DNA of 64,000 nt from Steromphala cineraria (taxonomy: Eukaryota; Mollusca; Gastropoda; Trochida; Trochidae), in the NCBI GenBank assembly GCA_916613615.1, contig OU744730.1, forward strand, positions 34,271,315-34,335,314. The letters run 5' to 3'. Below the pieces are notes generated by a model, which ran no database searches, was not told where the DNA came from, and saw only the letters and a list, made by a program, of their open reading frames with translations. The position numbers were made by a program, and so were the translations under genes. How positions within the stretch are numbered: position 1 is the first letter of the stretch; every line of letters begins with the position of its first letter. Below are positions 6,485-56,946 of the stretch, in pieces.

Positions 6485-6925
6485 GTTTAAAGAAACCAAT
6501 ATCAATCTTCAAGGCTTAACGGAGCAGGCCGAGAGTTCTTATTCAAGTGAATGGTCTCCGTGTGTAAATGGTCGTCATAGCGACATAGCGTACAGCGAAC
6601 TCGGGTACTCCTTGCCTAAGAGCGTACTTAAATTGTCAACAGAGTGACAAAGATTCCTTTCCCCCTACACAACAAGTATATATCATGCTATAGCGGTACC
6701 TGATTTAGTGTTTGGAGAGTTACCGTTCTTTGACTACGTGTGTTAATTGACTGGCTTCTTCATAGGACGAGCCCCTATTCATACATGTTATCGATTGTTG
6801 TTTATTCTAAAGAACCCCGAAAGTAATAAACTCGACTACAACAGTGTAAATTATATAGAGGCGTTAGATGATTTCCCTTGATAGGCAATCTATAAGCATT
6901 TAAAGATGTGATATCAAGACGGATT
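6485..6925. other. Upstream of gene B exon 1
   Basis: Unique AT-rich sequence between the start codon exon and the 40-bp array. It may hold the 5' UTR or promoter if exon 1 is the true first exon. No TATA box or initiator could be assigned. Confidence 0.4.
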
Positions 6926-9895: not shown

Positions 9896-10098
9896 TGGAA
9901 AGTCACAAATGGTCACCTAAAATGTGTGTGTACATCTAACCTTCTTAAAGACTCAGCGTTCAACCCTTTCCCTAATGAGGCCCGTTCTGTTTGCTAAGCT
10001 TCTCCCTACCCTGGAGGCAGGCATCATGGACAACACGGTGGAGGCCAGTTCACAAAGTACTTACACTAACTAAAGATTACCGGTGAAGACTGACTCAC
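9896..10098. other. Spacer between 40-bp array and candidate exon
   Basis: About 200 bp of unique sequence. No supported exon. Confidence 0.4.
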
Positions 10099-10185
10099 CC
10101 GCTTGTTGGTCCTGGGCTGGTGTCGGGTGGTGTAGGGGATGGGTGGGTGGATGGCGTCCTGGTAGTGGGTGTAGGCGTGCGCCAT
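10099..10185 (-). CDS. Candidate alternative first coding exon of gene B
   Basis: Minus-strand segment with a strong acceptor (ctccccag) directly before ATGGCGCAC and a strong donor (CGG|gtgagt). It encodes 29 codons starting MAHAYTHYQDAIHPPIPYTT, phase 0 to 0. That phase cannot join exon 6395-6484, which is read from its own ATG, but fits exon 1804-1932. An alternative N-terminus is therefore possible. All three frames are open because the exon is short and GC-rich, so it could instead be a 5' UTR exon or belong to another transcript. Confidence 0.45.
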
Positions 10186-18163: not shown

Positions 18164-18306
18164 CTAGAGAACATACACGGCCGAGTCGGAGCGACGTCTG
18201 TATATGTAGACAACCACCCCGGCAGCAAGCGACAACATCGCCGTGACGACAACAAGCAGGGTTAAGGGAAGTTGCCAGCTCGGGACTTCAGAACTCTCGC
18301 CTTCTC
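18164..18306 (-). CDS. Gene A exon 9: transmembrane helix and C-terminus
   Basis: The acceptor is catatttcag and the exon enters in phase 1. It encodes EGESSEVPSWQLPLTLLVVV, the rest of a hydrophobic helix, then YIYRRRSDSAVYVL and stop TAG at 18166-18164. The basic residues after the helix give an outside-in (type I) orientation. Confidence 0.92.
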
Positions 18307-21300
18307 CTGAAATATGATAAACCTTTTCTTGAACCATTACATTTGAGAAGAGATCTGCTTTTCGTTGGAATTTACGCTTTTGAAATCCAAGTTCGAACAC
18401 ATTTGACATATAAACAACCATTTGAAAGCGAAAACATTTTAATTCAGGGTAATCAAATAGAAAATAAATGTGTGAAACGGCCCTATGAGGTAAAGAGAAC
18501 CGAGAAACTTCCATCACAGAAGTCGTATCCGGAGGACTGGACGTAGCGAACCATCACTGCCGTGTGTGGTATATAGTATAGGAATTCAGACCATGTAAAG
18601 ACAACTCATATATCAACTTCCTATCTCGTCTCAGACACTTGATTCATACATATCAAATACTGATGACCAATCGTACAGTGTTGCATTATACAGTTATCAT
18701 TTGTATAATTTGCTATTTGGGATATATTTGAACTATGATTAAATACGAAACTCCAAAAATTACATGAAGACAAATTTGTAAACCAGGCGATTTTTTTTCT
18801 CTTGCTTCGCTTCGAGAGAGTCCCCTGTAGTTTTAGGGCTTAAAGGGGGACTGGAATGGTCTATGGCCACTTTCGGGATTCATAAAAAGGGGTCTGCAAT
18901 TTGAATTAGAGTCAACTTACACACTTACGCGGGAGATTATTTCCTTTGTCTTTACAGGTTGCTATTTGACATAACGACCTAGGTGCGTTATGTGGATTAC
19001 TTCAGCCTGAAAAATACTGTTTTTTCCTAGTTATTTTAAAATCTTTTTTAACAAAATAGAAAATAAGTTCTAAAATGATGTCCCATGTTGTGTAAGACGG
19101 TTATATACTCCTTTTCGGTTGATATGGGATATAAAGCCCTCGGCTTCGCCTCGGGCTGTATATCCCATATCAATCTCAAAGGAGTATATAACCTATACTT
19201 AGAAGAAGAAGAAGAAGGAAAAGAAGAAGAAGAAGAAGAAGGAGGAAGAAGAAGGAAGAAAAGAAGAAGAAGAAGGAATATAAGAAGAAGGAAAAGAAGA
19301 AGAAGAAGGAATATAAGAAGAAGAAGGTTGGGAGAGTTAAGGTGATAAATACACTACCAATTAGCCCCGGCGAACAGAATCTGTGGTCACTGAAGCGTGT
19401 CCTGCGCGTGTCAACCTTCTATGACGTAGCAGTAGGGAGTACTTGAACCTAATGATAATTTTTTAACGGGTAATGACACATTTTGATCGTTCATACAAAA
19501 TATTCACAAAAAACACTTATTGTTTGTATATTCCGATAGCTTAGATATCCGACGGCTCACTAACGATTTATTCAAGTCAATTTTTATTGTATAAACATAT
19601 TGGCGCCGTTATGGCTAGACATGTCCGTTTAAATTGATAATCTGATGGTCTGTTGTTTGCTGAATCTTGCATAACATACACTGACTATTATTTCCGACGG
19701 TGACAAATAACAAATCGTTTATATTTTCAGTGAACAAACCGAATATTTTCTACAATCGAATACTTAAAATGTTACTTTTTGGTGAGTTTATTGCAATATA
19801 AAGATATGTTTGACGGTGGATAATTTTACCATAGTGGTTTGAAAGGAATGGAAAAGTGAACGGTTATATGTTATTTATTATATTTTTTCTCTTATGAAAA
19901 GATAGGCGCCACATAATCTTTAGTACGTTATGATCAATCTCCGTAGTTGTTACAACACATATCAATAATAAAATAATTAAACATTATTTACCAATGGTTG
20001 ATCTATTCAATATATATAAGGTTTCGTTTCGTATTGAAAATGAAACAATGTGGGCGGGGCGTCACGCTCTAATGAGTTTTCAAAGTGTTCGCCTGTTAAT
20101 TTCGGCCGCGGTGTAAAAACATGGTATAAAATGCTGATTAAAAGTCTAATTTATGTGTGTATTGTCTCAGTTACATGCTCATTGCATTCCCATAGATAAT
20201 GGTACTGGAGATAATGATTTATCATTCTTAGAAACAATACATTGCATAACTTGTTTAAAATCGCCGATTCAAAAAATGGAAATTCCCTTTTTATTATTAG
20301 AACGCCAATCAGGAAACACGTCTCATTTAGATGCAAGGCACTACTAACTGGAGGAGTATGTTCGTTCGTAAGGAGGGGGCACCTAACTACATTGTATAGA
20401 ACAAGCCATATAGACTTTACTGGTAGCCGTGTTGTCGGCAATTTCAAGCCCTAAAACTACAGGGGACTATTTCGAAGCGAAGCGAGAGAAATAAAGTCGC
20501 CTGGTTTACAGGATGGTGAAAACATTCTCTTGTGATTTATCTATACTGATGTCCTACTGTACTCTCATGTCACGTAAGATATCAACATTAGGTGTAACAC
20601 ACAGAAAGCATATACATGTTTAGCGATGTGTTTGGGGCTGATAAAGTATTTTGAATATCTCTATATATTGTTGACGTCCAATTTTAAACATACAGGATCA
20701 CGTAACAATTTACAAAAAAAGTGGAGTGCTCCTAATGTGCTCAATGGTTTTGCTGCAAAATAACGTTACGACTTTCATTTCAGCATGAATTGAATACAAA
20801 ACACTCATTTTGCAAGCCATTTTTTATACATATATACAAGCTAGTTCTTAAAAAAATAAAGAAAGGATATTATGGCCCTTATACGCGTTGTGTTTTCCTG
20901 CCAATTCTACCAGATAATTATATACACTGAAAACACGACAATCTAAGCACTTTTTATAAAGAATGACTTTCACTCATGACAATTTGTATTACAAAGCTTT
21001 ATGGAAGCAAGGCACGACAACCTGCCCACATGACCCCTTCTCGTCTGGATGTTACGGATCTTACCCAGTTACGGTAGGTGTGTTCTCCAACTAGACTGGT
21101 CATTAGTATTAGAGGCATGGTATGAGTTGTTCATAGATATGATTATGCTGATTGTTTGTGTGTGGGTAAGTGTTCTTCGTCCCAGTGAAACTTCAGAGTT
21201 CTTACCTTTAGGAATCTCTAACTCTAGAACTGCGCTGAAGTTGCCGTTTCCTGAAACAATGATTAATTTGCCTTATTGGACACTTAATCAGCTGTGTCAT

Positions 21301-24300
21301 GACTAATAATATATAGGAGCCCTGGATACGTTCAAGGTCGTCTTTCAACAAATCCGATTAAATGAAAAGAAAAACAAAAAATCAAATAACAAAAGTAGAT
21401 GACAGTATTAACTTCAAATAGTTCATGGACTATTTCTGACGGGAGGTTGTCAAAGTTTGCACCAGAATAGTTTGAGAATTGACCTGAACTATTATCATAA
21501 TTATGCATTTTTACGATTTTGCATTTTGATACCAATTTGCGATGTGAGGAAGGGACATTATCGCCTGCCTGCATTTTCTCCCTATAAATACCCGAACACT
21601 TATATATATGGGTTTGATATAAATATAAGCCACGTGTCGCGAGGACCTTTGTCCCTTTCCCTCGCTTATCATAATATTCATTGAAAGCATGATGTCCTAT
21701 GAAACGTAATCGTGAATTATATCACGAAATAAATCAGGTTGTTGAAAACTGTATTTCTTATTAGGACTATCGGACACTCACCCTCGGCTCCGCCAGTTGA
21801 TCGTCTCTCTACATTGATGTTCCGACAAGAACTCTACGGGAAGAAATACATTTTGAATTTGAGCCTATTTCATTTTTTTCAAACACAAGTCACTAAAATC
21901 AGTAGATCTCATGTACCCCTCTGGTAATCAACAGTGGTACAATTTGCAGACAATTATGATAATAGTATTGTTACAATAATGCTGAAACATGTCTTTACCG
22001 TAATCTGCTTTTAAAGAAAGCAAACAAACTATCTACTTCCAACAGCGAATTGATAAATACGAAACTCAAATTTCTTTGCAAATTCATAACATAATAAGTC
22101 TTTAGGTATCAAGAAGTTGATAGAATTATATAATCAGGACTATAACTGAATAAATGATTCAGGTGCACAGTAAGCGGGGTTCAATGCCCATATATAGTAG
22201 CTGAATATAAATTTCTATAAATGCTGAAGTAGACAACACTTTGAAATGAAGACAATCTCATAAAACACAAGTATTTGTCACAAAGGTGACAAGATCCCCC
22301 GCCGCAAATTGATGTTAACAACAAGAAGCGGGACGGACGTACGGACGGACGTACGGAGCGGAATACTATGTCCCCCGTGAAGACTCAAGGTTAATGTGTT
22401 CATGAGATATGGCGCTAACAACATTTTCAAAACTGGTCAAAGTCTCGCCGTGACCTTGAAAATGAGGTCAAGGTCACCGAAAACTTTTCAGGTCTGCGTA
22501 TTCCCCAGATGAAGACTGGTACCAAGTTTGAAGATTCTAGGTTGAGCGGTTCATTAGATATGGCGCTAACAACATTTTCAAAACTGGTCAAGGTCTCGCT
22601 GTGACCTTGAAAATGAGGTCAAGGTCACCGAAAACTTTTCAGGTCTGCGTATTCCCCAGATGAAGACTGGTACCAAGTTTGAAGATTCTAGGTTGAGCAG
22701 TTCATTAGATATCGCGCTAACAACATTTTCAAAACTGGTCAAAGTCTCGCTGTGACCTTGAAAATGAAGTCAAGGTCACCGAAAACTTTTCAGGTCTGCG
22801 TATACCCCAGATGAAGACTGGTACCAAGTTTGAAGATTCTAGGTTGAGCGGTTCATTCGATATCGCGCTAACAACATTTTCAAAACTGGTCAAAGTCTCG
22901 CTGTGACCTTGAAAATGAAGTCAAGGTCACCGAAAACTTTTCAGGTCTGCGTATTCCCCAGATGAAGACTGGTACCAAGTTTAAAGATTCTAGGTTGAGC
23001 GGTTCATTAGATATCGCGCTAACAAGAAGCGGGACGGACGTACGTACGTACGTACGGACGTACGGAGCTGAATACTATATCCCCCGCTTCGCGCTAAACG
23101 CGCGGCGGGGGATAAAAAGGAAGCTTAGAACTGTTGTAAAGAATGCACTACTCTTTAAAGGCAAAATAATCCAATTTCCCTCAAAACCCAAAACAAATCC
23201 GGCTGTCAGATAATTTCATTATGAATGTCATCAATAATCACGAATAAACCTATGTCTATTTGGAATAGACAAGCATTATTATTCATTAGACATTGACTAG
23301 ATTTTTGCACACAAAAAATTAATATGTTTTCACATAATTATTTTGATTTAAGTGAACGATTAATAATATATGAATATTTTGTAAATAAAATATATTGTTG
23401 AAAAAATGCGCCTTGTTTAACTTCATCGACGCATCAAAGAGGTAGACCGTCTTAAAACACACCACACAAGTCTTATTTCACTCTATCTTTCAGAAAGATC
23501 GTTTTTTAAAGCAATCGTTTGAGAGCGTTTTTTTAGAAACGGTGCCGAAATTGTTTCACAATGCATAATACCTGGCTCCTGAAGGTATGATGTAACTATG
23601 TTGTTGACAGATCAAATCATTAATTAACAGTCGAGTGTGATCACTTAGTCATTGCCGGTGATCATATTGATTTTCTATTGATTCATATGTGTTTAGTGGT
23701 TACCCCGTCGCAGTTGTCCATACAGACAGTGAAGTTACAGTGGAACTTCATCAGAGTGCTGTCCTTGACGTTGAAGACGGAGAAGTAGGGGCTGGACACG
23801 TCTAGTCCTTGGGTGAGGAACCCTTCAGTCTTCCCGAACACCAACCCGTCCCCGCATCTGTAGGAGTGATACACAGCTCTTATTAGTCATACAACTAAAG
23901 CGACAGTTCTTTCAGGGTGTTTTTGTGACACAGTGATAAATAATGTCACATTGTTCAATCTAGAACAACTTAGATGTCACCCTCACTATAACAAATACGA
24001 AAATAATCGTTAAATATGCATGCATAATATATAAATGTAAACAGGAAAGTACTCTTTAATTTTGATTCCACAAAAATACCCCGATAGGACTGTCCTTTTA
24101 ACGATATAAGCGACATAAAAGCTATATAGAGGGTAAAACCGATTTGTCACAGATTTCCAAAACACACACACTCCGTGTTTGGAAGTTTGCGGCAGTAGAG
24201 GCGACCAGCAACTGTGACGGTCCTCTACACAACCTTAACATTAAACGGTTCAAACATTACAATTCACTGAAAAACAAATGTTTCAGTACAATTCACCTGT

Positions 24301-27300
24301 AAAATGTTAAGTATATCAGAAGATAAGTACTGTTTTAAAACTATGTATTGTAATAAAGCGTAGATTTGTTTCCATGACTGGTTTGACCTAAATATATTGA
24401 TTTGTTTTTTAGACAAAACCAATGGAAGAACGAGATTTTCGGTAAACATCACGGAAGATTAAAGATAAAACCTATTTTAGACACGTACCTTGTTTAAATA
24501 GTGCAGCAAAATATGCTGCGGTTCAAAAATCAAGTAAATGATTAATTTTTTTGTCAAAATATAATGTATGTTTAAGGGTTGCGAGTTGTCATATAGGGGT
24601 GTAGGACTTGCCCTGCGCGGAGTATAGCGTATCTCAGCCCGTTGTCTCCCACCGCATCACAGGACACAGCCGCCAGACCCTGCTCGCCTCCCGCCCCTGC
24701 AAGTAGACACACACCGTCAACATCCTTAATAACATGAAGAAAGATAGGCAGTTAAAGGTTGCAAGCTGACAGAGTCGGCTACATTCCCAAATATAAAGTG
24801 TCCGATGAGCTTGTATAACCGTTATACAATGAAGTTGGCTCTTTGCAAACATAAATACATGCTGTTTTCATAATGCATTCCTTCATAAGAAAGTGATGTA
24901 ACAATTAGTCGTCGATAACCTTTTACTTAACTTGGTTAGGTCAGCTGCCAATCTTTAGAATAACCCTTTGATAACTAAAATCATCATGGATCTGTGGTCA
25001 CATAGCTCACCATCAGAATGTCCCTGGAGTTTGACGAGACGACCCCGGGGGATTTTACCCGTTATATCCTCCCCCAAAATGCTGACCATGCGCAGTGTGA
25101 TGGCGGAAGTAGATTTATTTCCCTTGTGGGACTGAATTTCAATAGGTGCAACAAGGCTGGAAGAAAAGATATATGCAGTCACTCAAGAAGTATCGCAACT
25201 ATTGATTCTTTGCATACTTAGATTTGAGTTCAAACGAAATATCGTTTGAAAGATTTATTTAGGTTATTCAATTATTGGACGGTTAAATATAATTTATTTA
25301 TCTTATTGATATACTGAAATACTAGCAGCCTTATTATAAGTGAAATATTGTTGAAAGCGGCGTATAATAACTTTGGACTTATCCTCAGGAAACGAAATGA
25401 TTCAGACAGACAGACGGACAAGACGATGACAATATTCCACGGTATTACAAACCGGTGGGCTAATACGTGAGGCTTGCAACAAAGAACTTTATAAATTAAT
25501 GAAGCAAATAATGTGTAAAACCAGCTGATAAACTTAAACTATAGGAAGTGTCATCAAAGTGAGAGAGGAAACTAACTATTCGTATAGGTACTGTTGGTTG
25601 AACTCAACACGCACCTGTCTCCAATGAGCTCCACATCTGATATATTTTCCCCGTAGTTAGAGTAGCCACACGTGACGAGGTACTGCTCCACCACCGGTCT
25701 GATCTTGGTCTCGGGCTCTCCCCACTGGACCTGCAGCAGCAGCGTGTAGTGACTCACACCCTCCATCCTCTGTAACATACATACACCACGTGTTGGTTCG
25801 GGCACAACATACATCATGTGTTAGCTAGGGCACAACATACACCCATGCAGTATTAATTCGGGCGCAAGATACACCCAGTTTTGGTTCGGGCATAACATTC
25901 ACCAATTGCTGGTTCGGGCTAAAAATAAAAAAATCAGGCTTTACATTTGATTTCGCTATAGGTTTGGCCAATGTAGGGCTAAAAATAAAAACAATCAGGC
26001 TTTACATTTGATTTTGCTATAGGTTTGGCCAATGTAGTGCCCCCTTAGTAGGGGCCATGGGGCAACCAAAGCTACAATTTATAATCCTCACTAGATAAGG
26101 AGTTTGTACACAAAGTTTCAGCTTTCTAGGCCTTCTGCGTCTGGAGAAAAAGATAAAAAATTCAGCTCTCTTGGGCTTCTGCTTCTGGAGAAGATGAAAA
26201 TAGGTCACAGTTTTTAAGGCATGGTCCCTTAGGCCCTTATTAGGGGCCACGGGGCCACGGGGCCACCAAAGCTACAATTTATAATCCTCACTAGTCAAGG
26301 AGATTGTACACAAAGTTTCAGCTTTCTAGGACTTATGCTTCTGGAGAAAAAGATAACAATTTCAGCTCTCCTGGGTTTCTGCTTCTGGAGAAGAAGATGA
26401 AAATAAATTTTAAGGGTGTGGCACCTGTGGCCCTAAATTGGGGTCACAGGGTCACAAAAGTTACAAATTAGAATCCCCACATGCCAAGGCACCTGCACAC
26501 TAAATATCAGCTCTTTAGAGTCATTGGTTCTGGAGAAGAAGACGAACATAGGTTTTAAGGGCGTGGGCCCTGTGGCCCTTAATTGGGGTCACAGGGTCAC
26601 AAAAGATACAAATCAGAATCCCCACATGCCAAGGTACTTGTACACACAATTTCAGCTCTCTAGTGTATATGGTTTATGAGGAGAAGTCGAAAGTGTCAAA
26701 AGTTTACGGACGACGGACGACGGATGACGGACGGACGCCGGACCATGCCATAAGCCCATCTGGCCTTTCAGGCCTGATGAGCTAAAATGGGGTACATTTA
26801 GCCGAATCGCCATCATGTGAACACGCCTTGGGGCCACTAGGCAGTATTACCACTAACGTTAAAGACGCACGCCGTGCTGGAGTCTGCGTCAAAAGAGGGG
26901 TAGAACCAGAAGTGCACTTTGTCGTATGATTCCACGTCCTCGGTGTAGTTGTCCTTACACAGAGCCGTCACCGCCACGTTCAGGTCAGTGATGAGACCAA
27001 CCTCCATCATTCCGGTCGGCGTCGGGTTGCAGTGAGCCATAACTGGACACAAACAAAGGTTATAGTTAACATAGAACAGTAAGCTTCTGAATGAATGAGT
27101 GGGGTTTAACGTGCTGTCAGCAACATTTCAGCTATTTAACATGTGGATGTTATATTCAAAAGAGTATGCACATCAGAGACAGGGTGCACGGGAACAGATG
27201 AAAAGGGCATAAATCGAGAGATAGAGCATTTTTTTGAACGACACAAACTTGGTTCTGATTCTATCCACAGGGAAAAAGCACAATAATCCACTTAAATAAT

Positions 27301-30300
27301 ATGTATTGCTGCAGACTACTCTATAACGGCAACACCTTGCTTTTACTTGCTTCAATACGGCTATACTGATTATCAGTTATGTTGAATGAACATTTAGTAT
27401 CACTCACCGTCCAGCACGTAGTTTCCTTGAATGTGTTTGTGGTACTGGTAGGCCTGCAATGTACAATATGGAGAGAAATATTTGTGGTACTGGTAGGCCT
27501 GCAATTTACAATATGAAGAGACATATTTGTGGTACTGGTAGGCCTGCAATGTACAATATGGAGAGAAATATTTGTGGTACTGGTAGGCCTGCAATGTACA
27601 ATATGGAGAGACATATTTGTGGTACTGGTAGGCCTGCAATGTACAATATGGAGAGAAATATTTGTGGTACTGGTAGGCTTGCAATGTACAATATGGAGAG
27701 AAATATTTGTGGTACTGGTAGGCCTGCAATTTACAATATGAAGAGACATATTTGTGGTACTGGTAGGCCTGCAATGTACAATATGGAGAGAAATATTTGT
27801 GGTACTGGTAGGCCTGCAATGTACAATATGGAGAGACATATTTGTGGTACTGGTAGGCCTGCAATGTACAATATGAAGAGACATATTTGTGGTACTGGTA
27901 GGCCTGCAATGTACAATATGGAGAGAAATATTTGTGGTACTGGTAGGCTTGCAATGTACAATATGGAGAGAAATATTTGTGGTACTGGTAGGCCTGCAAT
28001 GTACAATATGGAGAGAAATATTTGTGGTACTGGTAGGCCTGCAATGTACAATATGGAGAGACATGTTTGTGGTACTGGTAGGCCTGCAATTTACAATATG
28101 GAGAGAAATATTTGTGGTACTGGTAGGCCTGCAATGTACAATATGGAGAGAAATATTTGTGGTACTGGTAGGCCTGCAATGTACAATATGGAGAGACATG
28201 TTTGTGGTACTGGTAGGTCTGCAATGTACAATATGGAGAGAAATATTTGTGGTACTGGTAGGCCTGCAATGTACAATATGGAGAGAAATATTTGTGGTAC
28301 TGGTGGGCCTAAAACGTACAATATGGAGAGAAATATTTGTGGTACTGGTAGGCCTGCAATGTACAATATGGAGAGAAATATTTGTGGTACTGGTAGGCCT
28401 GCAATGTACACTATGGAGAGAAATATTTGTGGTACTGGTAGGCCTGCAATGTACAATATGGAGAGAAATATTTGTGGTACTGGTAGGCCTGCAATGTACA
28501 CTATGGAGAGAAAGATTTGTGGTACTGGTAGGCCTGCAATGTACAATATGGAGAGAAATATTTGTGGTACTGGTAGGCTTGCAATGTACTATATGGTGAG
28601 AAATATTTGTGGTACTGGTAGGCCTGCAATGTACAATATGAAGAGACATATTTGTGGTACTGGTAGGCCTGCAATGTACAATATGGAGAGAAATATTTGT
28701 GGTACTGGTAGGCCTGCAATGTACAATATGGAGAGAAATATTAGTGGTACTGGTAGGCCTGCAATGTACAATATGGAGAGACATGTTTGTGGTACTGGTA
28801 GGCCTGTAATGTACAATATGGAGAGAAATATTTGTGGTACTGGTAGGCCTGCAATGTTCAATATGGAGAGAAATATTAGTGGTACTGGTAGGCCTGCAAT
28901 GTACAATATGGAGAGAAATATTTATGGTACTGGAAGGCCTGTAATGTACAATATGGAGAGACATGTTTGTGGTACTGGTAGGCCTGCAATGTATAATATG
29001 GAGAGAAATATTTGTGGTACTGGTAGGCCTGCAATGTACAATATGGAGAGACATATTTGTGGTACTGGTAGGCCTGTAATGTACAATATGGAGAGAAATA
29101 TTTGTGGTACTGGTAGGCCTGTAATGTACAATATGGAGAGACATATTTGTGGTACTGGTAGGCCTGCAATGTACAATATGGAGAGACATGTTTGTGGTAG
29201 TGGTAGGCCTGCAATGTACAATATGGAGAGAAATATTAGTGGTACTGGTAGGCCTGCAATGTACAATATGGAGAGACATATTTGTGGTACTGGTAGGCCT
29301 GCAATGTACAATATGGAGAGAAATATTAGTGGTACTGGTAGGCCTGCAATGTACAATATGGAGAGACAGATTTGTGGTACTGGTAGGCCTGCAATGTACA
29401 ATATGGAGAGAAATATTAGTGGTACTGGTAGGCCTGCAATGTACAATATGGAGAGACATATTTGTGGTACTGGTAGGCCTGCAATGTACAATATGGAGAG
29501 ACATATTTGTGGTACTGGTAGGCCTGCAATGTACAATATGGAGAGAAATATTAGTGGTACTGGTAGGCCTGCAATGTACAATATGGAGAGACATATTTGT
29601 GGTACTGGTAGGCCTGCAATGTACAATATGGAGAGACATATTTGTGGTACTGGTAGGCCTGCAATGTACAATATGGAGAGAAATATTTGTGGTACTGGTG
29701 GGCCTAAAATGTACAATATGGAGAGAAATATTTGTGGTACTGGTAGGCCTGCAATGTACAATATGGAGAGAAATATTTGTGGTACTGGTAGGCCTGCAAT
29801 GTACAATATGGAGAGAAATATTTGTGGTACTGGTAGGCCTGCAATGTACACTATGGAGAGAAAGATTTGTGGTACTGGTAGGCCTGCAATGAACAATATG
29901 GAGATAAATATTTGTGGTACTGGTAGGCCTGCAATGTACAATATGGAGAGAAATATTTGTGGTACTGGTAGGCCTGCAATGTACAATATGGTGAGAAATA
30001 TTTGTGGTACTGGTAGGCCTGCAATGTACAATATGGAGAGAAATATAAGTGGTACTGGTAGGCCTGCAATGTACAATATGGAGATAAATATTTGTGGTAC
30101 TGATAGGCCTGCAATGTACAATATGGAGAGAAATATTTGTGGTACTGATAGGCCTGCAATGTACAATATGGAGAGAAATATTTGTGGTACTGGAAGGCCT
30201 GCAATGTACAATATGGAGAGAAATATTAGTGGTACTGGTAGGCCTGCAATGTACAATATGGAGAGAAATATTTGGGATACTGGTAGGCCTGCAATGTACA

Positions 30301-33300
30301 ATATGGAGAGAAATATTTGTGGTACTGGTAGGCCTGCAATGTACAATATGGAGAGAAATATTTGTGGTACTGGTAGGCCTGCAATGTACTATATGGAGAG
30401 AAATATATGTGGTACTGGTAGGCCTGCAATGTACAATATGGAGATAAATATTTGTGGTACTGGTAGGCCTGCAATGTACAATATGGAGAGACATATTTGT
30501 GGTACTGGTAGGCCTGCAATGTACAATATGGAGAGAAATATATGTGGTACTGGTAGGCCTGCAATGTACAATATGGAGAGACATATTTGTGGTACTGGTA
30601 GACCTGCAATGTACAATATGGAGAGAAATATTTGTGGTACTGGTAGGCCTGCAATGTACAATATGGAGAGAAATATATGTGGTACTGGTAGGCCTGCAAT
30701 GTACAATATGGAGAGACATATTTGTGGTACTGGTAGACCTGCAATGTACAATATGGAGAGACATATTTGTGGTACTGGTAGGCCTGCAATGTACAATATG
30801 GAGAGACATATTTGTGGTACTGGTAGGCCTGCAATGTACAATGTGAAGAGACATATTTGTGGTACTGGTAGGCCTGCAATGTACAATATGGAGAGAAATA
30901 TTAGTGGTACTGGTAGGCCTGCAATGTACAATATGGAGAGAAATATTTGTGGTACTGGTAGGCCTGCAATGTACAATATGAAGAGACATATTTGTGGTAC
31001 TGGTAGGCCTGCAATGTACAATATGGAGAGAAATATTTATGGTACTGGTAGGCCTGCAATGTACAATATGGAGAGAAATATTTGTGGTACTGGTAGGCCT
31101 GCAATGTACAATATGGAGAGACATGTTTGTGGTACTGGTAGGCCTGCAATGTACAATATGGAGAGAAATATTTGTGGTACTGGTAGGCCTGCAATGTACA
31201 ATATGGAGAGACATATTTGTGGTACTGGTAGGCCTGCAATGTACAATATGGAGAGACATATTTGTGGTACTGGTAGGCCTGCAATGTATAATATGGAGAG
31301 ACATATTTGTGGTACTGGTAGGCCTGCAATGTACAATATGGAGATAAATATTAGTGCTACTGGTAGGCCTGCAATGTACAATATGGAGATAAATATTTGT
31401 GGTACTTGAAGGCCTGTAATGTACAATATGGAGAGAAATATTTGTGGTACTGGAAGGCATGTAATGTACAATATGAAGAGAAATATTTGTGGTACTGGAA
31501 GGCATGTAATGTACAATATGAAGAGAAATATTTGTGGTACTGGTAGGCCTGCAATGTACAATATGGAGAGAAATATATGTGGTACTGGTAGGCCTGCAAT
31601 GTACAATATGGAGAGAAATATTTGTGGTACTGGTAGGCCTGCAATGTACTATATGGAGATAAATATTAGTGCTACTGGTAGGCCTGCAATGTACAATATG
31701 GAGATAAATATTTGTGGTACTTGAAGGCCTGTAATGTACAATATGGAGAGAAATATTTGTGGTACTGGAAGGCATGTAATGTACAATATGAAGAGAAATA
31801 TTTGTGGTACTGGTAGGCCTGCAATGTACAATATGGAGAGAAATATTTGTGGTACTGGAAGGCATGTAATGTACAATATGAAGAGAAATATTTGTGGTAC
31901 TGGTAGGCCTGCAATGTACAATATGGAGAGACATATTTGTGGTACTGGTAGGCCTGCAATGTACAATATGGAGAGAAATATTTGTGGTACTGGTAGGCCT
32001 GCAAAGTACAATATGGAGACACATGTTTGTGGTACTGGAAGGCATGCAATGTACAATATGGAGAGAAATTTTTGTGGTACTGGTAGGCTTGCAATGTACA
32101 ATATGGAGAGAAATATTTGTGGTACTGGAAGGCCTGTAATGTACAATATGGAGAGAAATATTTGTGGTACTGGTAGGCCTGCAATGTACAATATGGAGAG
32201 AAATATTTGTGGTACTGGTAGGCCTGCAATGTACAATATGGAGAGAAATATTTGTGGTACTGGAAGGCCTGTAATGTACAATATGGAGATAAATATTTGT
32301 GGTACTGGTAGGCCTGCAATGTACAATATGGAGATAAATATTTGTGGTACTGGTAGGCCTGCAATGTACAATATGGAGAGAAATATTTGTGGTACTGGTA
32401 GGCCTGCAATGTACAATATGGAGAGAAATATTTGTGGTACTGGTAGGCCTGCAATGTACAATATGGAGAGAAATATTTGTGGTACTGGTAGGCCTGCAAT
32501 GTACAATATGGAGAGAAATATTTGTGGTACTGGTAGGCCTGCAATGTACAATATGGAGAGAAATATTTGTGGTACTGGTAGGCCTGCAATGTACAATATG
32601 GAGAGAAATATTTGTGGTACTGGTAGGCCTGCAATGTACAATATGGAGAGAAATATTTGTGGTACTGGAAGGCCTGTAATGTACAATATGGAGACAAATA
32701 TTTGTGGTACTGGTAGGCCTGCAATGTACAATATGGAGAGAAATATTTGTGGTACTGGTAGGCCTGCAATGTACAATATGGAGAGAAATATTTGTGGTAC
32801 TGGTAGGCCTGCAATGTACAATATGGAGAGACATGTTTATGATACTGGTAGGCCTGCAATGTACAATATGGTGAGCAAATTTGTGGTACTGGTAGGCCTG
32901 CAATGTACAATATGGAGAGAAATATTTGTGGTACTGGTAGGCCTGCAATGTACAATATGGAGAGAAATATTTGTGGTACTGGTAGGCCTGCAATGTACAA
33001 CATGGAGAGACATATTTGTGGTACTGGTAGGCCTGCAATGTACAATATGGAGAGAAATATTTGTGGTACTGGTAGGCCTGCAATGTACAATATGGAGAGA
33101 AATATTTGTGGTACTGGTAGGCCTGCAATGTACAATATGGAGAGAAATATTTGTGGTAGTGGTAGGCATGTAATGTACAATATGGAGAAATATTTGTGGT
33201 ACTGGTAGGCCTGCAATGTACAATATGGAGAGAAATATTTGTGGTACTGGAAGGCCTGTAATGTACAATATGGAGAGAAATATTTGTGGTACTGGTAGGC

Positions 33301-36300
33301 CTGCAATGTACAATATGGAGAGAAATATTTGTGGTACTGGTAGGCCTGCAATGTACAATATGGAGAGAAATATTTGTGGTAGTGGTAGGCCTGTAATGTA
33401 CAACATGGAGAGAAATATTTGTGGTACTGGTAGGCCTGCAATGTACAATATGGAGAGACATATTTGTGGTACTGGTAGGCCTGCAATGTACAATATGGAG
33501 AGAAATATTTGTGGTACTGGTAGGCCTGCAATGTACAATATGGAGAGAAATATTTGTGGTACTGGTAGGCCTGCAATGTACAATATGGAGAGAAATATTT
33601 GTGGTACTGGTAGGCCTGCAATTTACAATACGGAGAGAAATATTTGTGGTTGTGGTAGGTCTGCAATGTACAATATGGAGAGAAATATTTCTGGTACTGG
33701 TAGGCCTGCAATGTACTATATGGTGAGAAATATTTGTGGTACTGGTAGGCCTGCAATGTACAATATGGAGAGAAATATTTGTGGTACTGGTAGGCCTGCA
33801 ATGTACAATATGGAGAGTAATGTTTGTGGTAGTGGTAGGCCTGTAATGTACAATATGAAGAGAAATATTTTTGGTACTGGTAGGCCTGCAATGTACAATA
33901 TGGAGAGAAATATTTGTGGTAGTGGTAGGCCTGCAATATGGAGAGTAATATTTGTGGTACTGGTAGGCCTGCAATGTACAATATGGTGAGAAATATTTGT
34001 GGTACTGGTAGGCCTGCAATGTACAATATGGAGAGAAATATTTGTGGGACTGGTAGGCCTGCAATGTACAATATGGTGAGAATATTTGTGGTACTGGTAG
34101 GCCTGCAATGTACAATATGGAGAGAAATATTTGTGGTACTGGTAGGCCTGCAATGTACAATATGAAGAGACATATTTGTGGTACTGGAAGGCCTGCAATG
34201 TACAATATGAAGAGAATATTTGTGGTACTGGTAGGCTTGCAATGTACTATATGGTGAGAAATATTTGTGGTACTGGTAGGCCTGCAATGTACAATATGAA
34301 GAGAAATATTTGTGGTACTGGTAGGCCTGCAATGTACAATATGGAGAGAAATATTTGTGGTACTGGTAGGCCTGCAATGTACAATATGGAGAGAAATATT
34401 TGTGGTACTGGTAGGCCTGCAATGTACAATATGGAGAGAAATATTTGTGGTAGTGGTAGGCCTGCAATGTACAATATGGAGAGAAATATTTGTGGTACTG
34501 GTAGGCCTGCAATGTACAATATGGAGAGAAATATTTGTGGTACTGGTAGGCCTGCAATGTACAATATGGAGAGAAATATTTGTGGTAGTGGTAGGCCTGC
34601 AATGTACAATATGGAGAGAAATATTTGTGGTACTGGTAGGCCTGTAATGTACAATATGGAGAGAAATATTTGTGGTACTGGTAGGCCTGCAATGTACAAT
34701 ATGGTGAGAAATATTTGTGGTACTGGTAGGCCTGCAATGTACAATATGGAGAGAAATATTTGTGGTAGTGGTAGGCCTGCAATGTACAATATGGAGAGAA
34801 ATATTTGTGGTACTGGTAGGCCTGTAATGTACAATATGGAGAGAAATATTTGTGGTACTGGTAGGCCTGCAATGTACAATATGGTGAGAAATATTTGTGG
34901 GACTGGTAGGCCTGCAATGTACTATATGGTGAGAAATATTTGTGGTACTGGTAGGCCTGCAATGTACAATATGGAGAGATATTTGTGGTACTGGTAGGCC
35001 TGCAATGTACAATATGGAGAGAAATATTTGTGGTAGTGGTAGGCCTGCAATGTACAATATGGAGAGAAATATTTGTGGTACTGGTAGGCCTGCAATGTAC
35101 AATATGAAGAGACATGTTTGTGGTACTGGTAGGCCTGCAATGTACAATATGGAGAGAAATATTTGTGGTTCTGGTAGGCCTGCAATGTACAATATGGAGA
35201 GAAATATTTGTGGTACTGGTAGGCCTGCAATGTACAATATGGAGAGAAATATTTGTGGTACTGGTAGGCCTGCAATGTACAATATGGAGAGAAATATTAG
35301 TGGTACTGGTAGGCCTGCAATGTACAATATGAAGAGACATGTTTGTGGTACTGGTAGGCCTGCAATGTACAATGTGGAGAGAAATGTTTGTGGTACTGGT
35401 AGGCCTGCAATGTACAATATGGAGAGAAATATTTGTGGTTCTGGTAGGCCTGCATTGTACAATATGGAGAGAAATTTTTGTGGTACTGGAAGGCCTGTAA
35501 TGTACAATATGGAGAGAAATATTTGTGGTAGTGGTAGGCCTGCAATGTACAATATGGAGAGAAATATGTGTGGTACTGGTAGGCCTGCAATGTACAATAT
35601 GAAGATAAATATTTGTGGTACTGGTAGGCCTGTAATGTACAATATGGAGAGAAATATTTGTGGTACTGGTAGGCCTGTAATGTACAATATGGAGAGTAAT
35701 GTTTGTGGTACTGGTAGGCCTGCAATGTACTATATGGTGAGAAATATTTGTGGTACTGGTAGGCCTGCAATGTACAATATGAAGAGACATGTTTGTGGTA
35801 CTGGTAGGCCTGCAATGTACAATATGGAGAGAAATATTTGTGGTACTGGTAGGCCTGCAATGTACAATATGAAGAGACATGTTTGTGGTACTGGTAGGCC
35901 TGCAATGTACAATATGGAGAGAAATATTAGTGGTACTGGTAGGCCTGCAATGTACAATATGAAGAGACATGTTTGTGGTACTGGTAGGCCTGCAATGTAC
36001 AATATGGAGAGAAATATTAGTGGTACTGGTAGGCCTGCAATGTACAATATGGAGAGAAATATGTGTGGTACTGGTAGGCCTGCAATGTACAATATGAAGA
36101 GACATGTTTGTGGTACTGGTAGGCCTGCAATGTACAATATGAAGAGACATGTTTGTGGTACTGGTAGGCCTGCAATGTACAATATGGAGAGAAATATTTG
36201 TGGTTCTGGTAGGCCTGCAATGTACAATATGGAGAGTAATGTTTGTGGTACTGGTAGGCCTGCAATGTACAATATGGAGAGAAATATTTGTGGTAGTGGT

Positions 36301-36813
36301 AGGCCTGCAATGTACAATATGGAGAGAAATATGTGTGGTACTGGTAGGCCTGCAATGTACAATATGGAGAGAAATATTTGTGGTACTGGAAGGCCTGTAA
36401 TGTACAATATGGAGAGAAATATTTGTGGTAGTGGTAGGCCTGCAATGTACAATATGGAGAGAAATATGTGTGGTACTGGTAGGCCTGCAATGTACAATAT
36501 GGAGAGAAATATTAGTGGTACTGGTAGGCCTGTAATGTACAATATGGAGAGAAATATTTGTGGTACTGGTAGGCCTGCATTGTACAATATGGAGAGAAAT
36601 ATTTGTGGTACTGGAAGGCCTGCAATATTGAGAGAAATAATACCTTCTTGAATTTATGCCCATGCCCTCACAGTAACACCCTATTATACATGAGGCGACA
36701 ATGCTATGTTTAAGTTCCTAACTTCCTATGAAAGTGGATCGTTTATCCAAGACTAATATTCAATGAGTGGCACTGACCTGACAACCCGCGAGTACCAGGA
36801 ACAACAGCCACAT
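18164..36813 (-). CDS. Gene A: zona pellucida (ZP) domain transmembrane protein, complete
   Basis: Nine coding exons (36778-36813, 27408-27453, 26858-27042, 25615-25769, 25011-25156, 24612-24696, 23704-23857, 21782-21833, 18164-18306) sum to 1002 nt, giving 333 aa and TAG. All phases agree. Seen: signal peptide MWLLFLVLAG; ZP-N with Cys 32, 56, 86, 123; ZP-C with Cys 202, 219, 258, 263, 267, 272; a dibasic ERR at 278-280, where ZP proteins are often cut; a transmembrane helix at about 299-322; and a short tail beginning RRR. N-glycosylation sequons occur at Asn 59, 131, 154 and 259. The cysteine order is that of ZP modules, which polymerise into extracellular coats or matrices. In molluscs many ZP proteins belong to the egg envelope, but that role here is inference. 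Intron 1 is nearly all minisatellite and intron 6 is GC-AG. Confidence 0.9.
18307..18777 (-). other. Gene A intron 8, distal part
   Basis: AT-rich unique sequence between exon 9 and the inserted TIR element. Nothing else recognised. Confidence 0.5.
19099..19193. repeat. 95-bp palindrome (long hairpin)
   Basis: Two arms of about 44 nt, starting GGTTATATACTCC and ending with its complement, meet at a CTTCG-type centre. Few mismatches. Transcribed either way it would fold into a long hairpin. Confidence 0.85.
19201..19326. repeat. GAA/AAG-rich microsatellite
   Basis: An imperfect trinucleotide purine tract directly after the palindrome. The E/R/K-rich open frame over it (19085-19345) is an artefact. 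Confidence 0.9.
20510..21781 (-). other. Gene A intron 8, proximal part
   Basis: AT-rich unique sequence. No exon or repeat recognised. Confidence 0.45.
21782..21833 (-). CDS. Gene A exon 8: end of ZP-C and linker
   Basis: The acceptor tttcttcccgtag and donor GAGG|gtgagt bound 52 nt, phase 0 to 1. It encodes SSCRNINVERRSTGGAE plus a split Gly. It supplies the last ZP-C cysteine and a dibasic stretch. Too short to find by open-frame scanning; found because only these boundaries satisfy the phases of exons 7 and 9. Confidence 0.8.
21834..22293 (-). other. Gene A intron 7, part
   Basis: AT-rich unique sequence up to the tandem-core element. Nothing recognised. Confidence 0.45.
22294..23113. 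mobile_element. 820-bp tandem-core element with ACGG/ACGT tracts
   Basis: Ends are inverted (ATCCCCCGCCGC and its complement). Inside are about four copies of a core of roughly 151 bp, containing the GTGACCTTGAAAATGAGGTC type of motif. GACGGACGTACGG tracts sit next to both ends. The structure (inverted ends, tandem cores, ACGG microsatellite) resembles bivalve pearl-type non-autonomous elements. No coding capacity. Confidence 0.75.
23114..23703 (-). other. Gene A intron 7, part
   Basis: AT-rich unique sequence. No repeat or exon recognised. Confidence 0.45.
23704..23857 (-). CDS. Gene A exon 7: ZP-C core
   Basis: The acceptor is cactcctacag and the donor GACGGG|gtaacc, with 154 nt in phase 2 to 0. 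It encodes CGDGLVFGKTEGF and later KFHCNFTVCMDNCDG. The FHC..(V)C...C spacing is the signature of the ZP-C half. Confidence 0.92.
23858..24611 (-). other. Gene A intron 6 (GC-AG type)
   Basis: The minus-strand 5' boundary is GCGCAGG|gcaagtcc and the 3' boundary cctacag. The only frame-consistent junction uses GC, not GT. Its extended match to the donor consensus (gcaagt) is what known GC-AG introns show. The joined codon is GGA (Gly 218), giving the RAGC motif expected in ZP-C. The rest is AT-rich without other features. Confidence 0.82.
24612..24696 (-). CDS. Gene A exon 6: ZP-C, fifth cysteine
   Basis: The acceptor is ctacttgcag and the exon runs 85 nt in phase 1 to 2. It encodes AGGEQGLAAVSCDAVGDNGL and RYAILRA. 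The pattern C..A....YAILRAGC is typical for ZP-C. It ends at a GC donor. Confidence 0.88.
24697..25010 (-). other. Gene A intron 5
   Basis: About 314 bp of AT-rich GT-AG intron. No other feature. Confidence 0.6.
25011..25156 (-). CDS. Gene A exon 5: start of ZP-C
   Basis: The acceptor tatcttttcttccag has a strong pyrimidine tract, and the donor is GATG|gtgagc. The 146 nt run phase 2 to 1. It encodes LVAPIEIQSHKGNK and ends LVKLQGHSD. A later AG (attcag) inside is excluded by phase. Confidence 0.86.
25157..25614 (-). other. Gene A intron 4
   Basis: AT-rich intron with a short CAGACAGACAGACGG tract near 25405. Nothing else recognised. Confidence 0.5.
25615..25769 (-). CDS. Gene A exon 4: end of ZP-N and inter-domain linker
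   Basis: The acceptor is tatgttacag and the donor GACAG|gtgcgt, with 155 nt in phase 0 to 2. It encodes RMEGVSHYTLLLQVQW and later EQYLVTCGY, the fourth ZP-N cysteine in its usual VxC(S/G)Y setting. Confidence 0.9.
25772..25920. repeat. 28-32-bp degenerate minisatellite at gene A exon 4 acceptor
   Basis: About five diverged copies of a unit AACATACAYCA...GGTTCGGGCAC start within a few bases of the exon 4 splice acceptor and run into intron 3. The copy touching the exon supplies the acceptor's upstream bases. Confidence 0.75.
25921..26788. mobile_element. Pearl-like tandem-core element (third copy, diverged)
   Basis: It has diverged core units with GGGGTCACAGGGTCAC and CTTCTGGAGAA motifs, then a GACGGACGACGG tract. 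The terminal segment CATAAGCCCATCTGGCC...CTGATGAGCTAAAA is shared with the elements ending at 48859 and 51083. The left border is unclear and includes a duplicated 60-bp stretch (about 25917 and 25977). It lies in intron 3 of gene A. Confidence 0.7.
26858..27042 (-). CDS. Gene A exon 3: ZP-N
   Basis: The acceptor is gtttgtgtccag and the donor TTTAAC|gttagt, with 185 nt in phase 1 to 0. It encodes MAHCNPTPTGMMEVGLITDL and, further on, ALCKDNYTED and FWFYPSFDADSSTACVFN. It carries ZP-N cysteines 1 to 3 and a glycosylation sequon NYT. Confidence 0.92.
27043..27407 (-). other. Gene A intron 2
   Basis: 365 bp, AT-rich, GT-AG (donor gtgagtg). No other feature. Confidence 0.6.
27408..27453 (-). CDS. 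Gene A exon 2: mature N-terminus
   Basis: The acceptor acattgcag and donor CTGGACG|gtgagt bound 46 nt, phase 0 to 1: AYQYHKHIQGNYVLD plus a split Val. The first 18 nt and the acceptor are the same sequence that is repeated about 200 times in intron 1, so the true boundary could lie at another copy. The exon-proximal copy is chosen as the simplest. Confidence 0.8.
27436..36640. repeat. 45-bp minisatellite, about 204 copies, filling gene A intron 1
   Basis: On the sense (minus) strand the unit reads TTTCTCTCCATATTGTACAT, then TGCAG|GCCTACCAGTACCAC and AAATA. It thus has a pyrimidine stretch, a 3' splice acceptor and the first codons of exon 2. The unit is 45 nt, a multiple of three, so long frames stay open on both strands. 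Rare 1-2 nt indels (near 32876, 33186, 34080, 34210, 34975) and a shortened unit near 33935 shift phase. Variants recur in blocks, for example about 315 bp (7 units) apart at 31330 and 31645. Confidence 0.97.
36778..36813 (-). CDS. Gene A exon 1: start codon and signal peptide
   Basis: ATG at 36813-36811 encodes MWLLFLVLAGCQ, ending at the donor TGTCAG|gtcagt in phase 0. The hydrophobic core fits a signal peptide cut near the exon junction. ccttcag lies 2 nt before the ATG and could be the acceptor of a 5' UTR intron; a start further upstream is not excluded. Confidence 0.78.
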
Positions 36814-39800
36814 ATCTGAAGGAGAGACAGGGACTTTGATTCTTTGATGAGCCATTTGGATGATACATAGTATATTTTTGTCATAACAGAATAATCTTAC
36901 AATGTGCGATACGAATTTTATTATACTAGACGGAGGATATGGTGTGTTTAAACATGTGAAAACATCGGTTTATGGAATTGAAATTGTAAATTTGAATAAG
37001 GAAAACGCAAGAGTACAGTTGATGTCAGTTTTTATGAAAAAATTATTATTGATATGATGCCTTCTTTGTAGATGATTATGTATTCTATTTACAGAGCCAT
37101 AAAATCGCTCAGCTTCGATGTTGGCCGCATGCGAACAAATAAGCTAAGTATTAACATATTCCGTGATGAAACATTTAGAGTTTCAACTTGTTTCCTACTT
37201 GAACTCATACGATAATATTGAATATAAACTATTATCTTTAGCCTGACGTGAACACCCTTATCAACAACACTGTAAGCTCACACAACCCTCGCGTTATGGG
37301 ACGTTTATACAACGTTATCTCGCCAATAGAAAGAAAATGCTCTTTCGAGATTATTTGTCTTAACATCTTACAATATAGAAATCTGAATGCTAAATATTCA
37401 TTTACAGTCGACAACTTTTATTTCAGATTTTTTTTGTAAGATTCCGTATGATAGATATAAGTTTCAAGAGTGTGATAAGACTACAGTTCATTACCAAGTC
37501 ATTTTACGTGCGCTTGAACAAGTGATGAATATCGGTCATATTTCATAACTAATATTACAGCATATATCTATACATTGCCTGTACAATAACTAATCAAGAA
37601 TATATAAACGAGTGTTGTATTGTTATATACCTTGTATTTAGCGTAGTTTATTTTCAAAACTTCATCAATTTTATGATGATCAAACTCATTGAACATTGAG
37701 GTGGTGTACATTATATCTTATTTTAGTGCGAACCACTATGATTTCTTATAATCAAAATTAATAGTCTTGGTTCTACATTACCAACTATGAAGGGTACTGA
37801 AGTGCGGTATTTTGCACGGATCTGTCAAGTTTGAGTGACACATGCATGTTCATTGCAACGCCAGCAGCACATGCACGCTCTGCACGTGAAGAAAGAAAAA
37901 AATTGTTTGACATGTTTAGGCCTTTGTAATATCAACACACATTGGTATATTTTCAGCAAAGAATTCTAAACGTACCATGTATAATCGTGACTACTTTGTG
38001 GAAGTTACTAATACTATCTCGTTGACAGTACAGTTATTACTGTGTGACATTATTCATTCAATTTTGTGTCATGTATCTATCAAGATAGACATTGATTCAC
38101 ATTGCTAAATAAAAAACCCATTTCAATATCAGAAAATGGCAAGGTGAAATCAATCGAACCATTCACCTGTTTTCAGAGCTCCGTCACTCCAGCCGTCTGT
38201 CTGACCCAACCCAACCTCATGGAATGCACGTGCGCGCCGCGTATGGATCTTTTATCACGTCAATCAAATGCAGCAAAAAGTCCGCCGATTTCGTTTTCAA
38301 TAATTTGTTGACAATTTCAAAACTTGAATATTTAGATGAGTACAAACATTGGGTACTCGAGTACCCGAACCCGAGTCCATGTTTTGGGACTTGATTACTC
38401 GAATAAGGAGATATTTGGTTCTTAGTTAGATTATCTTAGACTGTCTGTCTGTGATGTGTGAAGATAGATAATCCACATGACATTGATGTCAAATTACACT
38501 ACATATGACCATATATATTCATAACATCTACACTGACCAACAATATTACATGAAATCAGTCAAGATAAGAATTGTGGGTACTCGAGTCCTTGTCAAGTCT
38601 AAACCCTTGAGTCAAAGGGTAAGTTCAGCGTTTGGGCTCTGATATTGGAAGTGACCAGATTTGCGAACGCAGTGAGCAAAGGGTGGCAACGACTTTCTCT
38701 CGCCTGGAATCAAATAATGTTTGTGTGTCAAAACTTATCTCTCAAAAAAGTCAATAAAGATACATATGTCTTCAGAATATTTTGCTCTCTTAGTTAACAC
38801 CTCAGAAATGTGTTTAATTCACGTAAAATATATTAAATTGAGCATTTTAATCGCTAAACACTGCATCTCAAATCGTTCTTTGGGTTCATTACCCCCACAA
38901 GCTTCCGGTTTACGGAATGAATAGCATAATCAACGGAATAATCAACATGAACACGCCATGTTGTTTTAGTATATACATGAACCGCCGAGTTCACTTTGCC
39001 CCAAAGTCACGTGCTACATCACAACAGGCGATCATCAGTGTGCTGTGAACTAGGAACCAGGGGTGTCTAAGCACTTCAAGAAACAACGCCATCTACCTTC
39101 AGTTACCGATCATTGCGCAACTCAAGCCATACTTGAAATGGTCTGGGAGAGGCTAGGGTAAGCTCTGTTAGTAAATTGTTGATTTCAGGGATATGATACA
39201 TTGAATAAGAAATTTATCTGAAACTTTCTTTTATGTTTTCCGGCAACGGGAGGAAAACAAAGAATATGTCTTTTGGAAAAGATTTGTCAAACCTTCTCAC
39301 ATCATGAGTACATTTCTTCCAGCCATCATTAATGCCAGTAAAGATGGTCCGAAAAGGACATGTAGAATCAAAGAGTAATTTTCAATTTTGGCAGTCAGTA
39401 TTGGGAAGGACAAAGCGATGATCGGAATATGCGTACCATCTAGGGCACCAGTATAGATAAGGAAAACCCTATGTATGAAGATTGCTTTGTTTAAAGATTC
39501 CCCCAGACTATATTGCTATGGACTTGGGTCACTTGGCACTGTTATCTATGTCACACTACATAACAACACAATAGTAATACATTTCATCCACCATTTTATA
39601 TAACTAAAGGAACTTTGACCGTAGTTTGATCATCAAACCACTTGACTTCCAAACTCACTCCGTGATTTGAAAGAGTTTAAAGATTGTTTGGCCATAAGCC
39701 CGTGCCCCGGCTTTGGACAATTTGGGAGTTGCACGAGAGTGAGGGATAGCGTTAACTACTGCGTCGGCTTATAGAATAAGGACCATATTGATAATCATAC

Positions 39801-53840: not shown

Positions 53841-53841
53841 C

Positions 53842-56800: not shown

Positions 56801-56946
56801 CGTTTATTACTATACACTGAACGAGGGAGTTCCACTGATTCACAAGGAAACGTTTATTACTATATACTGAACGAGGGAAGTTCCACTTCTTCACAAGGAA
56901 ACGTTTATTACTATACACTGAACGAGGGAGTTCCACTTCTTCACAC
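53842..56946. repeat. 51/50-bp minisatellite, about 61 copies, at gene C start-exon acceptor
   Basis: On plus the unit is CTGAACGAGGGAAGTTCCAC, TGCTTCACAAGGAAACGTTT, ATTACTACACA (51 bp). A common variant lacks one A (GAGGGAGTTCC, 50 bp) and becomes frequent after 55650. The unit nearest gene C merges into the acceptor of the start exon (sense CGGTTCCTTGTTGCAG). The sense strand of each unit carries TTTCCTTGTGAAGCAG, an acceptor-like string. Long frames here (YYTLNEGSSTASQGNV; KQWNFPRSVYSNKRFLV) are repeat translations. Confidence 0.95.

Follow-up and report, generated by a model that had tools for sequence, protein, structure and literature searches.

The window, a stretch of 64,000 nucleotides from the genome of the gastropod Steromphala cineraria (contig OU744730.1), carries on its minus strand a complete-looking VERL-family gene of 10 exons, whose phases are consistent and whose predicted protein has 348 residues and no internal stop. 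The first intron of this gene is filled almost entirely by a tandem array of its own 3' splice site. The features of the gene are listed below in the order of transcription, with a slash marking the exon boundary.

36778-36855, minus strand: coding part of exon 1, MAHQRIKVPVSPSDMWLLFLVLAGCQ from the ATG at 36855 (or MWLLFLVLAGCQ from the ATG at 36813), phase 0, donor CAG/GTCAGT
27454-36777, minus strand: intron 1, 9,324 nt
27436-36626, minus strand: acceptor array, 205 units of 45 bp, TATTTCTCTCCATATTGTACATTGCAG/GCCTACCAGTACCACAAA, with AG kept in 194
27408-28308, minus strand: exon-proximal block, units 185-204, with 18 intact in-frame stop-free acceptors
27408-27453, minus strand: exon 2, 46 nt, AYQYHKHIQGNYVLD, donor /GTGAGT; conservation in relatives is confined to its last part
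26858-27042, minus strand: exon 3, where the VERL_C region begins
25615-25769, minus strand: exon 4 of the gene model
25011-25156, minus strand: exon 5 of the gene model
24612-24696, minus strand: exon 6, followed by an apparent GC-AG intron with the GC donor CAGG/GCAAGT at 24612
23704-23857, minus strand: exon 7 of the gene model
21782-21833, minus strand: exon 8 of the gene model
21206-21250, minus strand: exon 9 of the gene model
18164-18306, minus strand: exon 10, with a transmembrane segment (judged by eye), a short basic tail and the stop codon

The sequence-only reading of this DNA had proposed a ZP-type gene with a signal-peptide exon, and the protein analysis agrees. Residues 44-272 match the Pfam family VERL_C (PF25272) with an E-value of 2.1e-66 and 224.5 bits (cut-off 27.2), and the score of the general ZP Pfam model is under its own cut-off. 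All 14 homologues contain PF25272; the 11 that have an organism name come from Haliotis (9) and Lottia (2). The best homologue is VEZP16 of H. tuberculata, with 38% identity, and the highest identity among the homologues is 47%; the protein collection yielded no product of the snail gene itself. Judging from these matches, the protein belongs to the abalone VERL/VEZP egg-coat family. Large coding repeats of the VERL-proper type (~153 aa) are absent from the 348-residue model.

The peptide encoded by exon 1 is signal-peptide-like when judged by eye, and it can start farther upstream than had been proposed. The ATG at 36855, located 14 codons upstream of the ATG at 36813 in the same frame, can replace the latter, giving a longer signal peptide of 26 residues, which is a more usual length; an in-frame stop is found 114 nt before the upstream ATG. 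Exon 2 is well supported, since its end HIQGNYVLD (joined to V) aligns with a conserved stretch of VEZP proteins, (A)IPxGYxLxV, located behind their signal peptides. The earlier identification of exon 2 as the source of the array was right. The aligned relatives have nothing that corresponds to AYQYHK, the six residues encoded inside the unit. Intron 3 contains, at 26383-26692, 145-bp copies similar in appearance to a 145-bp tandem family that occupies two blocks at 46577-50973.

Analysis of the array by TRF gave a period of 45, with 204.6 copies, 94% matches and 0% indels. Wrap-around alignment on the minus strand resolved 205 units, of which 71 are exactly identical to the consensus, and 78 distinct variants. 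Every unit combines 27 nt of the intron end (pyrimidine-rich, terminating in CAG) with the first 18 nt of exon 2. Of intron 1 (9,324 nt), the array takes up 9,173 nt and leaves 151 nt outside; thus, both the copy number of about 200 and the near-complete filling of a 9.3-kb intron that had been claimed are borne out. Not every unit keeps the acceptor. The A of the acceptor is present in 205/205 units and the G in 194/205, so that AG is intact in 194/205 and CAGG in 190/205; AG is gone from 11 units, and gaps relative to the consensus, some of them frame-changing, were found in 7 units including the cut-off first one.

A search for the unit core (25 bases, at most 2 mismatches) gave 193 matches in the window, compared with a maximum of 0 in 100 shuffles. 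The whole 1.27-Gb genome also contains 193 matches, all on the reverse strand and, among the matches listed, all inside the window. The presence of the unit core at a single genomic place suggests that the array is home-grown from the boundary of the gene itself, and it rules out a dispersed satellite. The mean difference between units is 2.4 to 2.7 and stays nearly flat over distances up to 40 units, and divergence does not increase toward either end of the array. The final exon-proximal unit is identical to the consensus, so this end of the array has not decayed. A higher-order structure was considered and rejected, since similarity is flat with distance and the longest repeated block that contains variant units comprises 4 units.

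To compare the predicted strength of the splice sites, we used a simple acceptor score built from general splice-site frequencies. The median score of the units is 8.0, and the eight other acceptors of the gene score 7.0-9.6; of 2,794 background AGs that share this strand in the window, 2.6% score at or above the unit median. By this score, the array acceptors look usable. Donor-like sites were not observed in the array, where no GT matches more than 5 of the 9 positions of CAGGTAAGT; hence no unit is expected to act as an exon in its own right, and the interpretation of the units as cassette exons was rejected. The branch-point motif YTNAY occurs 15-40 nt upstream of 34/205 unit acceptors and of none among the last 20, a distribution that would go against, not for, the exon-proximal units.

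Several frames of the array stay open for thousands of bases. This openness has little meaning, because 45 nt equals 3 x 15, that is, 15 codons, and the consensus alone thus decides for each frame whether it is open or closed. Local frame 1 has zero stops in the readable units and does not join the frame of exon 2; it is uninformative, since almost no single change makes a stop in it (checked by hand). In the gene frame, stops occur in 20/191 readable units. The frame of exon 2 is shared by 145 of the 194 intact acceptors, but only 18 of these, all of them in units 185-204, would yield an exon 2 that is stop-free as well. Exons starting in this exon-proximal block would have predicted lengths of 46 to 901 nt, with 15 residues (YFSPYCTLQAYQYHK type) added per unit.

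Signs of selection were sought in both the coding frame and the splice signal. Selection for stop-free last units was rejected, since an equally open gene frame is seen in 63 of 187 windows, each 19 units long. Variation per site is 3.3% in the intron part of the unit and 2.2% in its exon part. Selection on AG was also rejected: 11 units lack the G, and the A shares its invariance with several other sites. These comparisons show no clear selection on the coding frame or on the splice signal.

Other arrays located at or near exon boundaries were found in the window and among the VERL-family paralogues in the same genome:

1912-2250, minus strand: second array spanning an acceptor, unrelated to the first, 8 imperfect copies of TATGTTCCAG/CCGGAYGGCGTGTATCTGTTC, 7 with AG
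25779-25919: 28-bp array ending 9 nt before exon 4 of the VERL-family gene, unit consensus without AG
53847-56945, minus strand: array of 61 copies of 51 bp, ending 5 nt before the exon 53841-53781 of a third gene
48-561 of locus L071 (C1:51.37 Mb): array of 10.6 copies of 50 bp, about 3 nt before exon 7 (start 565), unit consensus without AG

The second array has spacings of 47, 46, and 31 nt and lies at the exon start 1932 of another gene. A Haliotis asinina protein (62% identity over 105 residues) supports this exon, and DGCYLF in that protein corresponds to the repeated exon bases; 4 of the 6 upstream AG copies would break the frame. The 51-bp array abuts the acceptor of the third gene, whose exon is not repeated in it. 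The VERL-family gene is flanked by two apparently paralogous genes at 1065-10185 and 44621-53841, both on the minus strand. Neither has a Pfam match above the cut-off, one Haliotis homologue was found for one of them, and in each gene one acceptor carries or touches an array. An array of 74 copies of 40 bp (6930-9888) lies inside an 8-kb intron of the gene at 1065-10185, off the boundaries as mapped. The open frame at 52047-52790 contains a YADDSA motif and resembles the end of a non-LTR reverse transcriptase.

A VERL paralogue at C1:51.35 Mb, minus strand, has an array of 17 copies of 19 bp on the acceptor of its exon 7 (locus L026, 1655-1980). In this array, CTGTTACAG is retained in 7/17 copies, the exon-proximal ones, and lost from the distal ones; 5 of the 6 upstream CTGTTACAG copies would break the frame. 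Other paralogues have long open frames. On C35, at about 64,580,900-64,622,400 (L029-L033), a 15-bp threonine/proline-type repeat (for example ACAACCACTACCCCA) builds up 14,182 codons of open frame ahead of a VERL_C-type paralogue; the product is possibly a giant mucin-like egg-coat protein. Other VERL-family open frames, of 6,840, 2,178, and 1,995 codons, are found on C36.

For a count of such cases, extra copies of the boundary were sought within 1.5 kb or less of every mapped boundary in this window and in 42 of 58 VERL-family places. Of the 52 acceptors tested, those at L009, L010, and L029, all positive, were dropped, since there the array lies in an open frame shared with the ZP region. 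Among the remaining 49 acceptors, some of which belong to single-exon paralogues and are probably not real, 6 have an array: three are spanned by it (exon 2 of the window gene and, with arrays unrelated to that one, exon b of gene C and exon 7 at L026) and three are only abutted (exon 4 of the window gene, exon a of gene B, and exon 7 at L071). Arrays were found at 0/53 donors, a set in which one is a stop codon (exon 10 of the window gene), 5 from the two other genes are off by 1-2 bases, and some automatic ones are probably unreal. The excess at acceptors gives a Fisher p of 0.010 (0.022 when the reported exon 2 is left out); as the count is post hoc, covers limited loci with rough automatic boundary placement, and has short flanks for L053-L072 (~400-570 nt upstream), this excess is a lead and not a rate.

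The name mirage has been given to minisatellite-like tandem duplications of an intron-exon boundary, described in amphioxus for Adh3, the globin genes BflGb6 and BflGb9, TnC, and PGBD5 (available text of PMC3087553 and PMC3902484). These genes overturn the earlier statement that no gene with such an acceptor array had been described. Comparison of the snail array with this class revealed the same defining features: (i) the boundary lies inside the repeat unit, (ii) the unit derives from the boundary of the gene itself, and (iii) an intact authentic copy adjoins the exon. We therefore regard the array as probably a giant mirage that is spliced out with intron 1 via the exon-proximal acceptor and is tolerated, not selected.

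On this explanation, one boundary of a once short intron would have expanded by slippage or unequal crossing-over. Exon definition would then choose an acceptor at the very end of the array, either the final one or one of the few before it, since only these sit within a normal exon length of the good donor GTGAGT at 27407. Distal acceptors would mostly lead to frames with stops and degraded mRNA, and removal of the array with intron 1 is the likely outcome. Occasional in-frame addition of 15 residues per unit at the mature N-terminus would be a possible by-product: the final few copies have the predicted capacity to contribute in-frame segments of protein. The variable 5' ends of exon 2 that the sequence-only reading had proposed, and with them a short isoform ladder, are possible but limited, because only 18 of the 194 acceptors are in frame and stop-free. 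In favor of the mirage explanation, amphioxus mirages appear to leave regular splicing undisturbed (available parts of PMC3087553 and PMC3902484). The frame-breaking upstream copies in the sister arrays, in the second gene and in exon 7 of the VERL paralogue, point in the same direction.

Several observations count against a mirage that is merely tolerated. An exon of 46 nt has a length that exon definition handles poorly, so longer versions of exon 2 starting from upstream units might be preferred. The in-frame 45-bp period and the 18 nearest intact acceptors, all stop-free, fit a used series of acceptors equally well. The A of the acceptor is never lost and the exon part of the unit is slightly less variable, as some constraint would also produce. 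The undecayed array end, with its last unit equal to the consensus, and the lack of YTNAY motifs in the last 20 units likewise weigh, by their sequence, against this explanation.

The first alternative is that several of the last 18 in-frame acceptors are actually used as a ladder, yielding 0 to 19 extra one-cysteine modules of 15 residues at the N-terminus, with a menu that differs between individuals by unequal crossing-over. The frame-preserving unit of 45 nt, the 18 stop-free intact acceptors of the exon-proximal block, and the very short exon 2 itself agree with such use, as do several paralogues with long open-frame arrays directly before the ZP region. Abalone VERL, in the sources available, has its repeats in the same position before the ZP region, and units of the human IFI6 minisatellite act as alternative donors (PMC4526556, in its accessible part). 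However, equally long stop-free stretches are common throughout the array, the gene frame lacks a purifying pattern, and none of 13 candidate proteins contained the modules at E<=0.1. The last result is a weak negative, from a search that missed known relatives too and alongside a homologue search with a best identity of 47%. We consider use of the ladder unlikely: the sequence allows it but does not favor it. Slightly less probable still is the combined proposal that up to 18 in-frame acceptors provide a variable number of 15-residue cysteine modules, that unequal crossing-over resets the menu, and that such snail arrays arise repeatedly at acceptors and not at donors.

Far less probable is a regulatory role, an unsupported proposal of the sequence-only reading, in which the many acceptors would occupy U2AF or early spliceosomes and thereby delay or tune the output of the gene. 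The presence of 194 acceptor-like sites within one intron is what such a role would exploit, but the 11 losses of AG show no sign of constraint, unrelated genes also carry arrays on or at their acceptors, and regular splicing was reported as unaffected in amphioxus (PMC3087553 and PMC3902484, in the text available). We give slightly less credit to the array being mainly a coding, VERL-like repeat region in the gene frame. Its location between the signal peptide and the ZP region, where paralogues have open-frame arrays, would suit this idea, which was rejected on the gene-frame stops (20/191 readable units) and the frame-changing gaps; moreover, the array is open into exon 2 from units 185-204 only, and nearly every unit has a plausible acceptor. 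The least probable explanation is an assembly artefact, in which the array or its number of copies would be wrong, since, although assembly can collapse or expand tandem arrays, the source assembly xgSteCine2.1 (1,270 Mb, 283 scaffolds) was made with hifiasm from 42x PacBio HiFi long reads according to its description (PMC11074690), and the 78 unit variants with no long duplicated blocks indicate that the units were placed individually. That description also gives a public assembly of the second haplotype (GCA_916613985.1), the HiFi runs ERR6939216/7 and one RNA-Seq run, ERR6688409.

The locus represents a natural titration of the choice made by the spliceosome among identical 3' splice sites, with 194 near-equal acceptors, one exon, and one transcript, and sister cases with other unit lengths are available in the same genome. 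It extends mirages from lancelets to molluscs and ties them to a fast-evolving family of fertilization proteins. New introns have been suggested to arise by way of mirages (PMC3087553).

Among the known systems, the amphioxus mirages are the closest. The units of the Adh3 mirage are 10-72 bp long, and the two haplotypes of BflGb6 have 3 and 6 units, 150-160 bp long and each comprising the acceptor plus the beginning of exon 2; the authentic copy adjoins the exon, and both length differences and concerted evolution have been described (PMC3087553 and PMC3902484, available sections). RT-PCR in amphioxus suggests undisturbed regular splicing, and the upstream AGs could serve as cryptic sites (same sections). 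The snail array shares with these mirages the boundary unit, in which the acceptor is followed by the first bases of exon 2, and the authentic exon-proximal copy; it differs in having 205 frame-keeping 45-bp units, a mollusc host, and a gene of an egg-coat family.

The abalone VERL/VEZP proteins share with the snail protein the VERL_C domain and the signal peptide followed by an IPxGY-like stretch. The array of abalone VERL consists of 22 coding repeats of ~153 aa, as given in the material available, whereas the snail array is built of 45-bp units that span a splice site and are mostly non-coding. The minisatellite of human IFI6 reportedly has far fewer units than the snail array. In this gene, also named 6-16, two minisatellite units are used as further donors and give rise to isoforms (available part of PMC4526556, citing Turri et al. 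1995); here too a minisatellite supplies copies of one splice signal, but the signal is a donor and not an acceptor. In potato RdRp, a tandem duplication across the intron 1/exon 2 boundary created a new intron, and the duplicate carries a putative branch site, a pyrimidine tract, and a 3' site (PMC4974935, available part). This was a single duplication with the donor coming from the exonic part, in contrast to the snail array, which has no donor-like site. A full-text literature search, with most subscription papers lying outside its coverage, returned no acceptor arrays with hundreds of copies or in a mollusc. Thus, the array is of a kind that is already known, the mirage, and what is new is its copy number, its mollusc host, its in-frame 45-bp unit, and its recurrence.
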